Shown here one piece after another: positions 3,421 through 28,492 of a DNA stretch of 39,392 nt. The stretch is from a virus: positions 1-39,392 of IMG/VR virus record IMGVR_UViG_3300047548_001851, one strand, 5' to 3'. A program made the position numbers and the translations under genes. The notes under the pieces were generated by a model. The model was not told the DNA's origin, made no database searches, and saw only the letters and a program-made list of their open reading frames with translations. Position 1 is the first letter of the stretch, and each line of letters begins with the position of its first letter.

Positions 3421-3854
3421 AAAGAATTCAGGTCTCAAAGAATTTCTTTTTGGACGAATTTATCGATCCCCAGACTTATGCTGCTCGTGGGGCTCGTTCA
3501 ATTGAGTTAATTGATATGCGTTGTGTAGATGGGATCCAATTCGCAAGAGATCATGTTGGACCATTGTTTTGCAACACATGGGCAACAGGAGGATCCAGAA
3601 GATTGAGCGGTTTGAGACCACATAATACAACAGTGGGCGCCAAGTGGAGTCAGCACAAATACGGAAACGGATTTGACGTAATTTCTAAGCTGATAAGCCC
3701 CGCTGAGCTTCATGCTTTTATTTTAGAGCATGAGGATTTATACATAGGCAAAGGATGGGTGACAACTTTGGAAGATTTGCGCGATACTCCGACATGGACG
3801 CACATGGATAATCGATATACAGGTATGGATAAAATAAGAATTGTCCGCGCATGA
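3417..3854 (+). CDS. Endolysin, M15-family peptidase
   Basis: 145 residues. The zinc-peptidase signature SxHxxGxxxD is present as SQHKYGNGFD (His80, Asp87), and the third ligand is His129 in WTHMD. These residues define the M15 / Hedgehog-DD-peptidase fold, whose phage members cut peptide cross-links in peptidoglycan. There is no signal peptide, so export must rely on the holin-like proteins encoded directly upstream. Its start overlaps the stop of the holin-like gene by 4 bases and its own stop overlaps the next gene. The length is normal for a single-domain M15 endolysin. Confidence 0.85.
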   Translation: MKRIQVSKNFFLDEFIDPQTYAARGARSIELIDMRCVDGIQFARDHVGPLFCNTWATGGSRRLSGLRPHNTTVGAKWSQHKYGNGFDVISKLISPAELHAFILEHEDLYIGKGWVTTLEDLRDTPTWTHMDNRYTGMDKIRIVRA

Positions 3855-4651
3855 TCATTGAAATTAAAGAAAATGATAATGCAGTTCACACCATGGAGTG
3901 GGCAGCGCCTACTGATTGGCTTTCGATACAACGAAAAGATTGGAAGCTTTATCTTCAGCTTCGCTTTGCCTGCGCAGTTCGAGAAGAGAAATCAGATAAT
4001 CAATTGATCTATTTTCGCTTGATACTTGTGGATTTTCTCTCCGCGAGAAAGGCTATTCAGAAGATCATTCCTTCCATTCCGGAAATATATCTGATACCAG
4101 AAGTTATTGAATCAATAGTGAATGAGATTGAATGGCTAAAAGAACTTCCATACAATCAGAAATCCATGCGTAAGCGAATTGGTTTGTTTTTCGGCCCAAA
4201 GGATATGCTCATGGATTGGACTTGGGGAAGATATAGTTTAGCTGAGGAGACTTTCCGAAAGTACGTTGAATCGCTTGCCTTGGATAATAAGAAACTCGAG
4301 AGTCTTGCGCTATCTCAATTATTTGCTGTGCTTTATTCGCCATTTGGGTTATGGAACCCGAGAATTGCCGACTTCTATGTGAAACTCTCGTTTTTTGTGA
4401 GTCGGAAAAAGATGCTAGAAGCCGTGGAAAATTACAGAGGGTTGCGCCATTGGGTACAACAAGTGTACTCTCCTGCTTTTCCAGAACAATCAGGTAATGG
4501 AGAATCCAGTACCGATACTATGCGCTCATTAACAGTGGCTATGGCAGGACCTAAATTTGGAACTTTTAAACAAGTTCTCGCTGAGAATATGCACAACATT
4601 TTAATCTATCAATGTCAGTTGCATGAAGAAATTGAACGTTCAAAAAAATAA
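3851..4651 (+). CDS. Unknown protein upstream of the tape measure
   Basis: 266 residues, ATGA overlap with the endolysin gene. Soluble, helical, Trp-rich, with no signal peptide. It is the last gene before a terminator and the tape measure gene. In siphophages this slot usually holds tail assembly chaperones, and I suggest that role by position only. There is no second overlapping ORF of the kind made by a programmed -1 frameshift, so it is not a classic G/GT pair. The transcript probably ends at the hairpin 50 bases downstream. Confidence 0.5.
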   Translation: MIIEIKENDNAVHTMEWAAPTDWLSIQRKDWKLYLQLRFACAVREEKSDNQLIYFRLILVDFLSARKAIQKIIPSIPEIYLIPEVIESIVNEIEWLKELPYNQKSMRKRIGLFFGPKDMLMDWTWGRYSLAEETFRKYVESLALDNKKLESLALSQLFAVLYSPFGLWNPRIADFYVKLSFFVSRKKMLEAVENYRGLRHWVQQVYSPAFPEQSGNGESSTDTMRSLTVAMAGPKFGTFKQVLAENMHNILIYQCQLHEEIERSKK

Positions 4652-15032: not shown

Positions 15033-16139
15033 TCACCATTCTTCCTTCATATTCATAATATTTACGTTGGCCACGGGCTTCGCTTTGCGGATGTAGATGG
15101 ATGTGGTGTCTAGGGATGAATGCCGGAATTGATCTTTCAATTCAATCGGTGAATCAATGTTCTTGGCAAGCGCCAGTGCTCCTGAATCTTTGAGCGAATA
15201 CATTTGGTAGCTCTTGTCTAGTTTTAGAGCTTCACGCATGAAATTCCACTTGTTAGCCATTATTCGCGTATTGAACTTATATCTTCCTGGTTTCATCCCA
15301 TTGCCAGAAAACAAGTATTCTTCTGGACCTGCATCACCGAGATGCGCGGCCAAATCGTGAATGATGTGTATTGGTAAAGAAATAGGTGCGTCCTCGTGAT
15401 CCTTGGCCTGATCGGCGTGGATGTATATCAATCCTTTTTCCAACAGAATATTTTCAACTCTCAGCCTGCTCAGCTCTGTGGGGCGTATTCCACAATAATA
15501 GATGAGCTTCATTGGAAGAATCAATTCGGGATATTCTTGGGCCATGTACTCTTTGATTTTTGTGAGAACTGGTGTGGGAATAACCTTGCGGTTTTTTTCC
15601 TTCGGACGTTTGGCGCTGATGCCGGTGAATGGGTTTTCCTTGATGTATTGGTGCTCAACCAATCGGTTGAAAACAGTCTTAAGAACGCGCAGATAATTAT
15701 TGTAGGTACGAGCGGACAACTGCTTGGCCATCGTCATTTCAGCAAGGAATTCTAACACCACTTTTTTCGTGATTAAATGACAGTTTTGATGCAGCAGTTT
15801 TCTTTTCTCGCACCAATCAGCAAAAATGTGAATCATGCTTTTGTAGGTGCGGATAGAATCTTCTCTCTCAGGAAGGAAGTTTCCCTGAAAGAATTCCAGA
15901 GCCTTACGCAATGATCTAGCATCTGCATTATCCAATGCAGGAGTCCAACCAGCATAAAGCTTGTCATTAATTGTCTTCACCATCGTCAGAGCATACTGCC
16001 GTTGCTGCTTGACATCTGCGACGTGATTTACTCGGATGCGTTTACGGATGTATTTGTCGCCTTCCATGTAGTAGAACTCGACACGGGCATCCTTACCCGG
16101 ATAATATTGAGCAGGTTTAAAGTTTAGAATGTTTTGCAT
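15033..16139 (-). CDS. int: Tyrosine recombinase (phage integrase)
   Basis: 368 residues. The N-terminal half has an AP2-like arm-binding region and a SAM-like core-binding domain (about 85-175). The catalytic domain shows Arg219 (CGIRPTELSRL), Lys246 (ADQAKD), His340 (QFRHSS) and Tyr349 (TSIYIR). Box II, normally HxxR, reads Y314-S-L-K317. The conservative K is common in Bacteroidota recombinases as I recall them, but Y for H is notable. The protein would integrate and excise the phage at attP, which probably lies in the gap just upstream of its start (16140-16450). The RHH gene follows on the same strand. Confidence 0.92.
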   Translation of the reverse strand: MQNILNFKPAQYYPGKDARVEFYYMEGDKYIRKRIRVNHVADVKQQRQYALTMVKTINDKLYAGWTPALDNADARSLRKALEFFQGNFLPEREDSIRTYKSMIHIFADWCEKRKLLHQNCHLITKKVVLEFLAEMTMAKQLSARTYNNYLRVLKTVFNRLVEHQYIKENPFTGISAKRPKEKNRKVIPTPVLTKIKEYMAQEYPELILPMKLIYYCGIRPTELSRLRVENILLEKGLIYIHADQAKDHEDAPISLPIHIIHDLAAHLGDAGPEEYLFSGNGMKPGRYKFNTRIMANKWNFMREALKLDKSYQMYSLKDSGALALAKNIDSPIELKDQFRHSSLDTTSIYIRKAKPVANVNIMNMKEEW

Positions 16140-26994: not shown

Positions 26995-27411
26995 ATGAAC
27001 GCAAATGAAGTGGTACACTACTATCACATCAAAGTGATAGATAAGAATCGGGATCCGGTGGAAATTTTGTCCTGGAAGGGATTGCGCTTTGAACTTCGAC
27101 GTAAGTACGATTGGTATTTTAAATACCGGGCTGCTTTACTTCAAGTGAAGTATCCAAAGCTTGAAGTACAAGTGTGGTGGGGCAACGATCCAGCAACTGG
27201 AAAAACACTCGAGCAAATTCGAAAGGATAAGATCAAAGCGAAGAAAGCGAAGATCACGGAGTATAAAAATAAAATACAGAAAGCTCGTGAAAGCTGGAAC
27301 CGCATTTTCCCTATCGAGGATGATGTATTTTACAAAAGAGCATTAGCTAAAATCAGTCAACACGAATGTGAACTGAGAAATATGGAAATTGAATTTAGAA
27401 ATGAGGTATAA
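26995..27411 (+). CDS. Early protein, unknown; coiled-coil C-terminus
   Basis: 138 residues. An N-terminal mixed part contains YYHIKVIDKNRDPVEILSW, followed by a strongly basic helix (KDKIKAKKAKITEYKNKIQK). Its stop codon (TAA in GTATAAC) falls inside the left arm of the first attC-like element. The gene therefore abuts the cassette-like region, and its end may have been made by cassette insertion. No family recognised. Confidence 0.5.
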   Translation: MNANEVVHYYHIKVIDKNRDPVEILSWKGLRFELRRKYDWYFKYRAALLQVKYPKLEVQVWWGNDPATGKTLEQIRKDKIKAKKAKITEYKNKIQKARESWNRIFPIEDDVFYKRALAKISQHECELRNMEIEFRNEV

Positions 27412-27541
27412 CGGTTCGGGGCTTGTTTTTCGCCACCGCAATAGAATTACAAAACTGTCAAAACTTGATACAGATGAATAGAAATACAAATGCCAATGTT
27501 ACCACGTCAAGCGGTGGTGAGAACAAGCCCTTGTTAGCGGC
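27406..27541 (+). repeat. attC-like element 1 (integron cassette-type recombination site)
   Basis: The left arm runs GTATAAC (27406), GGGCTTGTT (27419-27427), CCACCGC (27433-27439). The right arm is the mirror image: GCGGTGG (27511-27517), AACAAGCCC (27522-27530), GTTAGCGGC (27533-27541). The paired outer TAAC/GTTA, two inner stems and a central loop of about 70 bases are the layout of an integron attC site (R''-L''-loop-L'-R'). No integron integrase is in the window, so origin by an outside integrase is inferred. Confidence 0.55.
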
Positions 27542-27776
27542 TGGGCTTCGTTTCAGAGTGCCAAAGCTGACTAAAGAACAAAACCGCATTCTTGAAAAAA
27601 TAATTGAAGGTGCGGAAATACAAGTTGATTGGGAGAATGAGCAGTATGTTTATACGCTTTGTGAAGATAGCGGAGATAGCTCCACTGTCCGAAAAGATAC
27701 ATTTGATAGACTTAAAGAAAGCGGTTTGATTAAATTGAAATGGAGACCGTCTATTGATGTCGAGCGGTGGGGTTAG
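27474..27776 (+). CDS. Small cassette-borne protein, unknown
   Basis: 100 residues if it starts at the ATG at 27474, which lies within the loop of attC-like element 1. A GTG at 27558, just after the element, would give 72 residues (PKLTKEQNRILEKII onward) and may be the real start. The shorter form has a helix, a beta hairpin and a helical end (VRKDTFDRLKESGLIK), a small HTH-like layout seen in many cassette genes. Its TAG stop is part of the GTTAGCATTG junction. A DNA-binding role is possible but not shown. Confidence 0.5.
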   Translation: MNRNTNANVTTSSGGENKPLLAAGLRFRVPKLTKEQNRILEKIIEGAEIQVDWENEQYVYTLCEDSGDSSTVRKDTFDRLKESGLIKLKWRPSIDVERWG

Positions 27777-27824
27777 CATTGCCGCTAACGGCCGGCAGCT
27801 ACCCGCAGGCGGGGACTTTAACCA
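27773..27824 (+). repeat. Cassette-junction element 2
   Basis: GTTAGC at 27773 pairs with GCTAAC across the junction. GCCGCTAAC (27781-27789) is the reverse complement of the GTTAGCGGC that ends element 1, so the small gene between them is bracketed as in an integron cassette. A hairpin (CCCGC-AG-GCGGG) follows. The right-hand boundary before the DUF1643 gene is not clear. Confidence 0.5.
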
Positions 27825-27842
27825 CAAAACTCAATTAGAAAG

Positions 27843-28397
27843 ATGAATGAACAATTAACCATAGAACTGTCAGACGAAGCACTGAACTCCCGCTTGAGGG
27901 TAGGTGCTGTTATAGCCAGTGCTTTCTTGTCCGAATGCAAAAAGTATCGCTATTCTCTGACCCGAATTTGGGATGAAAGCAAGCCCAAAGTAATGTTTGT
28001 TATGCTCAACCCATCCACCGCTGATGGCACACAAGACGACCCAACGATTAGGCGTTGCATTGGCTTTGCTAAATCTTGGGGATATGGTGGAATGCACGTC
28101 TGCAATTTGTTTGCATATAGAGCAACCGACCCAAAAGAATTACTCAAAGTTGATAATCCTTTTGGCGACCAAAATATATGGGTTACACGCAAGCTCGTTG
28201 ATGAAGTTGAAATTGTAGTATGCGCTTGGGGTAATAAGTCAATACTTGACAAATTTGAAAACCTGAGCACTTTCTTATTGCTTCATTATTGCCACGATAA
28301 GCAGCACTATATTGAGTTGTCAAAGGATGGTGTTCCTAAGCATCCACTTTACTTGAAGTCAAACCTAAAGCCTGTTAAGATGTATGATGTCTCTTAG
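27843..28397 (+). CDS. DUF1643 family protein
   Basis: 184 residues. VMLNPSTADGTQDDPTIRRC and the following FAKSWGYGGMHVCNLFAYRA are the signature segments of DUF1643, a family common in integron cassettes, phages and mobile elements and of unproven function. WVTRKLVDEVEIVVCAWGN completes the domain. It is preceded by junction element 2 and its TAG stop overlaps the CTTAGCATTGGC of element 3, which mirrors the junction of the previous gene. Likely an accessory gene acquired as a cassette. Confidence 0.85.
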   Translation: MNEQLTIELSDEALNSRLRVGAVIASAFLSECKKYRYSLTRIWDESKPKVMFVMLNPSTADGTQDDPTIRRCIGFAKSWGYGGMHVCNLFAYRATDPKELLKVDNPFGDQNIWVTRKLVDEVEIVVCAWGNKSILDKFENLSTFLLLHYCHDKQHYIELSKDGVPKHPLYLKSNLKPVKMYDVS

Positions 28398-28430
28398 CAT
28401 TGGCTATAACTCGGGGATAACCGCACCTCC
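28391..28430 (+). repeat. Cassette-junction element 3
   Basis: TTAGCATTGGC followed by TATAACTCGGGG. The first part matches the stop-codon junction of element 2 (TTAGCATTG) and the second matches the left arm of element 1 (TATAAC...TCGGGG). It ends the DUF1643 unit. The right half of a full attC-like structure is not seen here. Confidence 0.45.
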
Positions 28431-28442
28431 ATCATTCATCAG

Positions 28443-28492
28443 AGGTTGCAACCTTTTCAAAAAACAAACCTGAAAAAGTTGCAACCTTTTTT
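28443..28492. terminator. Bidirectional terminator between converging genes
   Basis: AGGTTGCAACCTTTTCA pairs with TGAAAAAGTTGCAACCT (17 bp, one mismatch) with an 11-base loop and a T-run after it. It ends the plus-strand early operon and the minus-strand lipoprotein gene that meets it. Confidence 0.8.

Follow-up and report, generated by a model that had tools for sequence, protein, structure and literature searches.

A two-cassette cluster with attC-like hairpins in a viral genome and a probable integron-like cassette system in Bacteroidota phages

Positions 27412-28409 of the viral genome analysed here very probably form a two-cassette cluster belonging to a site-specific cassette system that resembles integrons and circulates among Bacteroidota phages. 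The cluster is recognised by its anatomy and by the boxes that bracket each gene, and the system by the linkage of similar arrays to an integrase gene and an attI-like site and by exact cassette moves in cultured phages.

Results

Two hairpins and two bracketed genes in the window

The stretch analysed (the window) is a 39,392-base IMG/VR virus record whose genes include those for a tape measure protein, a primase, a head maturation protease and an ordinary phage integrase. Its cassette region contains the following features.

27409-27412, plus strand: TAAC core, left end of cassette 1, where the preceding phage gene ends; crossover predicted at TAA^C from Flavobacterium phage breakpoints
27413-27536, plus strand: attC-like hairpin 1, with spacer GGTTC, 5' arm 27418-27439, loop, 3' arm 27511-27531 and GTTA core 27533-27536
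27474-27776, plus strand: cassette gene 1, 100 aa (MNRNTNANVTTSSGGENKPLLAAGLRF...), ATG inside hairpin 1, TAG stop in TTAGCATTG
27533-27541, plus strand: R'-like box GTTAGCGGC, 5' bracket of gene 1
27773-27789, plus strand: junction TTAGCATTGCCGCTAAC, gene 1 stop codon plus R''-like box, pairing with 27533-27541
27786-27912, plus strand: attC-like hairpin 2, TAAC, spacer GGCC, GGCAGCTACCCGCAGGCGGG ... CCCGCTTGAGGGTAGGTGCT, GTTA
27843-28397, plus strand: cassette gene 2, DUF1643 (PF07799, 2.8e-45), ATG inside hairpin 2, TAG stop in TTAGCATTG
27909-27923, plus strand: R'-like box GTTATAGCCAGTGCT, 5' bracket of the DUF1643 gene, with its mate AGCATTGGCTATAAC at the gene end
28394-28410, plus strand: junction TTAGCATTGGCTATAAC, stop codon plus R''-like box, mate of 27909-27923
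27412-27788, plus strand: predicted mobile unit 1 (hairpin 1, gene 1 and R''), 377 bp assuming a cut at TAA^C
27789-28409, plus strand: predicted mobile unit 2 (hairpin 2, DUF1643 and R''), 621 bp assuming a cut at TAA^C
28411-28440, plus strand: right flank without a hairpin (TCGGGGATAACCGCACCTCC), an array end at the expected polarity, with a poor match to the attI consensus

Both hairpins share one layout, namely a TAAC core, a short spacer, the 5' arm, a loop of about 60-70 nt, the 3' arm, 0-1 nt and a GTTA core. The arms of hairpin 1 (27409-27536 including the TAAC core) are GGGGCTTGTTTTTCGCCACCGC and GCGGTGGTGAGAACAAGCCC; its arms, TAAC/GTTA cores and boxes all lie where a preliminary description, made from the sequence alone, had placed them. 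That description recognised a single attC-shaped element and missed the second complete hairpin at 27786-27912. Hairpins were called with a custom scoring script based on box-plus-stem geometry, which at a score of at least 40 returned exactly two elements in the window and none in 150 dinucleotide shuffles. The significance of hairpin 1 derives from this geometry and not from folding energy, which taken alone is unremarkable (z of -2.0 sense and -1.2 antisense); hairpin 2 folds better on the sense strand (-21.4 vs -15.3 kcal/mol antisense). A search of Rfam returned no match.

Measured by the CALIN criterion, the window holds two attC-like sites (as called by our script, recognition by published attC models being a separate matter) and no matching integrase. 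Its only tyrosine recombinase, encoded at 15033-16139 on the minus strand, is the ordinary phage integrase, in agreement with the earlier remark that an integron integrase is absent; acquisition of the cassettes would therefore have needed an enzyme supplied in trans or in the past.

Each gene is enclosed by its own pair of boxes. The mate of GTTAGCGGC is GCCGCTAAC at 27781-27789, at the end of gene 1, and the small gene is thus bracketed like a cassette, as originally proposed; overlooked at that stage was the DUF1643 gene's own bracket, in which GTTATAGCCA (27909-27918) pairs with TGGCTATAAC (28401-28410) as part of a 15-nt inverted repeat (93%). Both stop codons had been placed within a shared junction, and the TTAGCATTG junctions at 27773 and 28394 do each contain the TAG stop of their gene. 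The 17-mer TTAGCATTGNCNNTAAC has two copies in the window and 0 in 100 shuffles. Beyond the cluster, between DUF1643 and the convergent gene, an inverted repeat (AGGTTGCAACCTTTTCA / TGAAAAAGTTGCAACCT) followed by a T run occupies 28443-28487 and is probably a bidirectional terminator.

Both genes start in hairpin loops (ATG at 27474 and 27843), with frames that read through the 3' arm and the R' box. The second gene matches PF07799 with 154.1 bits (cut-off 22.5) and has its own hairpin and R'/R'' bracket; its earlier designation as a cassette gene is upheld. Gene 1 had no Pfam or PADLOC match and no relative among the viral contigs searched, and the libraries searched assigned no function to either gene. 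A DUF1643 gene of 67% identity in another viral contig (L124, 7860-8470) is accompanied by a hairpin together with the boxes GTTGGA / TTCCAAC; by eye, this is the same cassette layout with a CAAC core.

The same locus in related contigs

Comparison with related phages lacking these genes, a check suggested in the preliminary description, was possible through homologues of the gene upstream of the cluster (26995-27411). Two contigs with such a homologue (L125, L128) hold other cassettes at the same locus, and four (L126, L127, L129, L130) have no obvious cassette there by eye, so the cassette genes of the window are not vertically conserved. The pattern taken from L125 led to further viral contigs with such cassettes, some of them as arrays.

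In L125 (7860-8380), the homologue of the upstream phage gene itself starts inside such a hairpin and has a damaged R'' at its end; judging from this layout, the apparently fixed upstream gene may once have been a cassette. The same hairpin type occurs at 3826-3953 and 4280-4409 in the well-known F. psychrophilum phage Flavobacterium phage 6H (L159).

The in-depth searches covered collections of viruses, phages and plasmids. Matches to a loosely defined 17-mer in viral contigs were mostly due to chance, only the L075 contig being real, and a DUF1643 scan of genome contigs returned no Bacteroidota genome among its matches.

Arrays linked to a XerA-like integrase and an attI-like site

A tyrosine recombinase adjoining an array was first met in two contigs, and both sequences were then used as search queries, giving 34 viral contigs with a relative, some of them duplicates (about 30 integrase-bearing contigs). 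The array-linked integrase has about 276 aa and is XerA-like (NF040815). Compared with VchIntIA (2a3v), the linked integrases have about 21 residues against about 64, about 43 of the IntI additional domain being missing, and against TIGR02249 they reach 195 bits, below the cut-off of 265.

The common layout runs from hairpin-gene units through the attI-like TAACTACTATATGTATT to the integrase. Within the 34-contig set, 70 hairpins share the strand of the integrase and, with a single exception, lie upstream of it, with 0 in shuffles, and the array ends on the integrase side in an R'' without a hairpin. In 24 of 28 loci, an attI-like TAAC..TATATGTA precedes the integrase start by about 51-54 bp. 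The exact attI-like 17-mer was matched in 17 contigs, with the integrase directly after it in seven. One integrase-bearing contig (G008) has TerL (terminase), portal and capsid genes, and hence represents a true phage. Linkage to the arrays suggests that this integrase is the catalyst of the cassette reaction.

Several further sequences bear on the attachment site and the enzyme. Three contigs (L222, L230, L237) carry the exact attI-like 17-mer with neither hairpins nor integrase alongside, possibly as empty attachment sites. In L203 (68-1524), a cytosine methyltransferase (N-terminal part) and the array integrase (C-terminal part) are continuous in a single open frame, either a real fusion or an assembly chimera. 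A Chryseobacterium plasmid (NZ_CP041688.1, 7000-17100) encodes a 347-aa XerA-like integrase with an extra N-terminal domain; the spacer polarity of its hairpins relative to the genes is opposite to that of the phage hairpins, and they possibly belong to ordinary-facing Bacteroidota integron cassettes. The argument makes no use of the 142-nt repeats in the Chryseobacterium plasmid, since these may represent a different repeat family.

Bracketing recurs across the arrays collected in this analysis. Pairing of 8 bp or more links R' to the following hairpin's R'' in 54 of 83 cases and to its own R'' in 4 of 118; among random pairs, 3.8% reach this length. On sequence grounds, such pairing of R' with the next R'' is the signature of gene units that recombination has linked through a short core. 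Leader ORFs run out of 40 of the 101 non-redundant hairpins vs 4 of 101 antisense; a hairpin-borne gene start is common and not universal (about 40% of hairpins). The stop codon of integrase-linked cassettes lies mostly inside the TAAC core or 13 nt before AAC, in TAGCATT, the latter being the placement found in the TTAGCATTG junction of the window. Methyltransferases are recurrent in the Flavobacterium and integrase-linked arrays, and many of the cassettes that move in the cultured phages described below carry genes guarding phage DNA against restriction.

Cassette movement in cultured Flavobacterium phages

Eight cultured Baltic Flavobacterium phages, representing three genera, share one conserved attI-like site, TATAACTACAATATTACATG, next to which their cassette series differ. 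When pairs of these phages were aligned, breaks at cassette boundaries fell at TAAC, and other breaks fell inside divergent homologous genes or flanking phage genes. One methyltransferase cassette is accompanied by its upstream hairpin in several phages that differ in the R'' before it and in the hairpin after it.

The phages lillamy9-1 and lillamy9-3 (both 38,268 bp) share an identical 439-bp cassette that is located in the distal array in 9-1 and at the attI-like site in 9-3; over the 5.5 kb compared, the other 5,062 bases show 0 differences. An exact 342-bp cassette has been gained or lost at the attI-like site between snork6-1 and snork6-2, with 4,464 identical bases on one side and, on the other, about 700 bases that agree followed by 14 differing positions. 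Read from the genomes, these two comparisons amount to excision and reinsertion, preferentially at attI. A cassette is also common to the lytic phage hemulen6-1 and the integrase-bearing contig L194, with homology running exactly from TAAC to TAAC and an identity of 95-96% in its two aligned pieces.

The shuffling phages are lytic and encode no tyrosine recombinase in their genomes, so the enzyme would act in trans. These are the Baltic Sea phages of Nilsson et al. 2020 (PMC7077304), who associated poorer plating on LMO6 with the lack of a methyltransferase; an integron or cassette mechanism is unmentioned there.

Polarity and proposed mechanism

In the related cultured phages, the unit is hairpin-gene-R'' with the gene reading toward attI, the hairpin travelling with the downstream gene and the crossover lying at the upstream TAAC. 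Under symmetric scoring, sense-strand G.T wobbles outnumber A.C in 69 elements vs 5 the other way, and this excess indicates that the gene-sense strand is probably the folded substrate.

In the mechanism that we propose, the mobile unit would comprise an attC-like hairpin, whose loop often holds the start codon and a short N-terminal leader, then the gene, a stop codon and an R''-like box with TAAC at its end. Once the unit is excised as a circle, R'' and R' would pair over 9-15 bp, lengthening the hairpin. The gene-sense strand would fold, and the XerA-like tyrosine recombinase would join TAA^C to the attI-like site (TAACTACTATATGTA) beside the integrase gene, or to other hairpins. Cassettes would stack against attI with their genes facing it, as the mirror image of classical integrons. 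In the phage of the window, whose cassettes would have moved in like manner, the absent integrase would have acted in trans or earlier. Bulges favour the 5' arm (50 vs 24); this is the classical polarity when read on the gene strand, and the mirror model leaves it unexplained.

Discussion

Alternative explanations

In a classical integron cassette, the gene is followed by attC, the crossover G^TT lies on the far side, and the gene reads away from attI. The window could be seen as an ordinary CALIN of such cassettes, cut by IntI at G^TT and carried in a phage, and the TAAC/GTTA outer boxes, two long arms and bulges mostly in the 5' arm would fit, as would the presence of DUF1643 on small plasmids and the known phage CALINs (PMC9892861). 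We regard this as very unlikely, since in the Flavobacterium phages the hairpins move with the downstream gene and breakpoints fall at TAAC, contradicting the classical-cassette model, which the lillamy9-1/9-3 move refutes for these phages; moreover, the integrase-proximal end of the arrays is an R'' that lacks a hairpin, and the linked integrases have no IntI additional domain. We give even less credence, next to none, to the idea that the hairpins are terminators or translation-control elements and that the mosaic of genes reflects ordinary homologous or illegitimate phage recombination. Phage mosaicism is common and the hairpins do lie between genes and near start codons, but exact junctions at a 4-bp core recur in many pairs and one cassette was relocated with zero other change, the R'/R'' brackets match per gene and not per hairpin, and linkage to the integrase and attI-like site is fixed.

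The integron-like origin itself is shared by a reading that differs on present activity, in which the window cassettes are a fossil, acquired long ago through such a system and now immobile. This has a real chance of being correct, somewhat short of even. The window has no matching integrase, the stems are imperfect, and the right flank TAACTCGGGGATAACC matches the attI consensus poorly, no attI-like site being found in the window; against this, both hairpins and both R'/R'' pairs are intact, both reading frames are open, and integrase-free Flavobacterium phages still shuffle cassettes. Given the poor match of the right flank, the cluster in the window may have been inserted at a secondary site or be an array in decay; for the window itself, we give equal odds to present mobility and to earlier acquisition at a secondary site.

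Implications

It is likely that Bacteroidota phages encode and use a separate integron branch, with a XerA-like integrase without the IntI domain, genes facing attI, the start codon in the attC loop, and enzyme-less lytic phages that trade anti-restriction cassettes by means of a host- or phage-supplied integrase. If so, gene-capture platforms would be common in Bacteroidota phages, cassette polarity would not be a fixed property of integrons, and capture of hairpin cassettes would be possible without the IntI additional domain. The recombination site would also double as a translation start, fusing a leader to interchangeable genes. For lytic phages, the cassette system would provide a mechanism for rapid methyltransferase turnover, which has already been tied to plating efficiency. 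All these points are open to testing in cultured phage-host pairs.

Comparison with known systems

Known Xer enzymes resolve dimers at dif-like sites. XerA/XerC-like recombinases (NF040815; PDB 4a8e, 5hxy) are the best family and structure matches of the array-linked integrase, whose gene differs from them in being tied to cassette arrays.

Clusters of attC sites without an integrase (CALINs) are known from phages such as Polaribacter phage P12002L, with methyltransferase cargo; Qi et al. 2023 (PMC9892861) describe their sites as classical attC on which IntI1 is active. As far as the available text of that article extends, it reports neither a phage integrase/attI set of the present kind nor reversed units. 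Our hairpin scan of P12002L gave only weak elements, not strong ones as here. Complete integrons are nearly absent in Bacteroidetes according to IntegronFinder 2.0, with one in Salinibacter (PMC9024848), probably as a result of requiring IntI and classical attC. A literature search, with preprints and most subscription journals outside its range, brought up no account of either reversed cassettes or an integrase of this type.

Classical integrons have in common with the present system their arrays of single-gene cassettes, hairpin sites with R and L boxes, R'/R'' pairing within the cassette, and insertion at an attI-like site beside a tyrosine recombinase gene; here attI lies next to the integrase in 24 of the 28 loci, and the attC-like hairpins have R''/L''/L'/R' boxes. 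The differences are that genes face attI, that the hairpin precedes the gene and often holds its start codon, that the crossover lies at the upstream TAAC, and that the integrase is XerA-like. The system is integron-like in its working, and two defining features of classical integrons that were tested, the IntI additional domain around patch III and a gene-then-attC unit reading away from attI, do not apply to it. Of the integron interpretation in the preliminary description, the cassette nature and the integrase in trans stand, whereas membership of the classical attC/IntI system fails on the TAAC breakpoints and the missing IntI additional domain. Viewed on the other strand, the system is an integron with attI beside the integrase, attC after each cassette and the gene flipped, and its gene-sense strand corresponds to the classical bottom strand.
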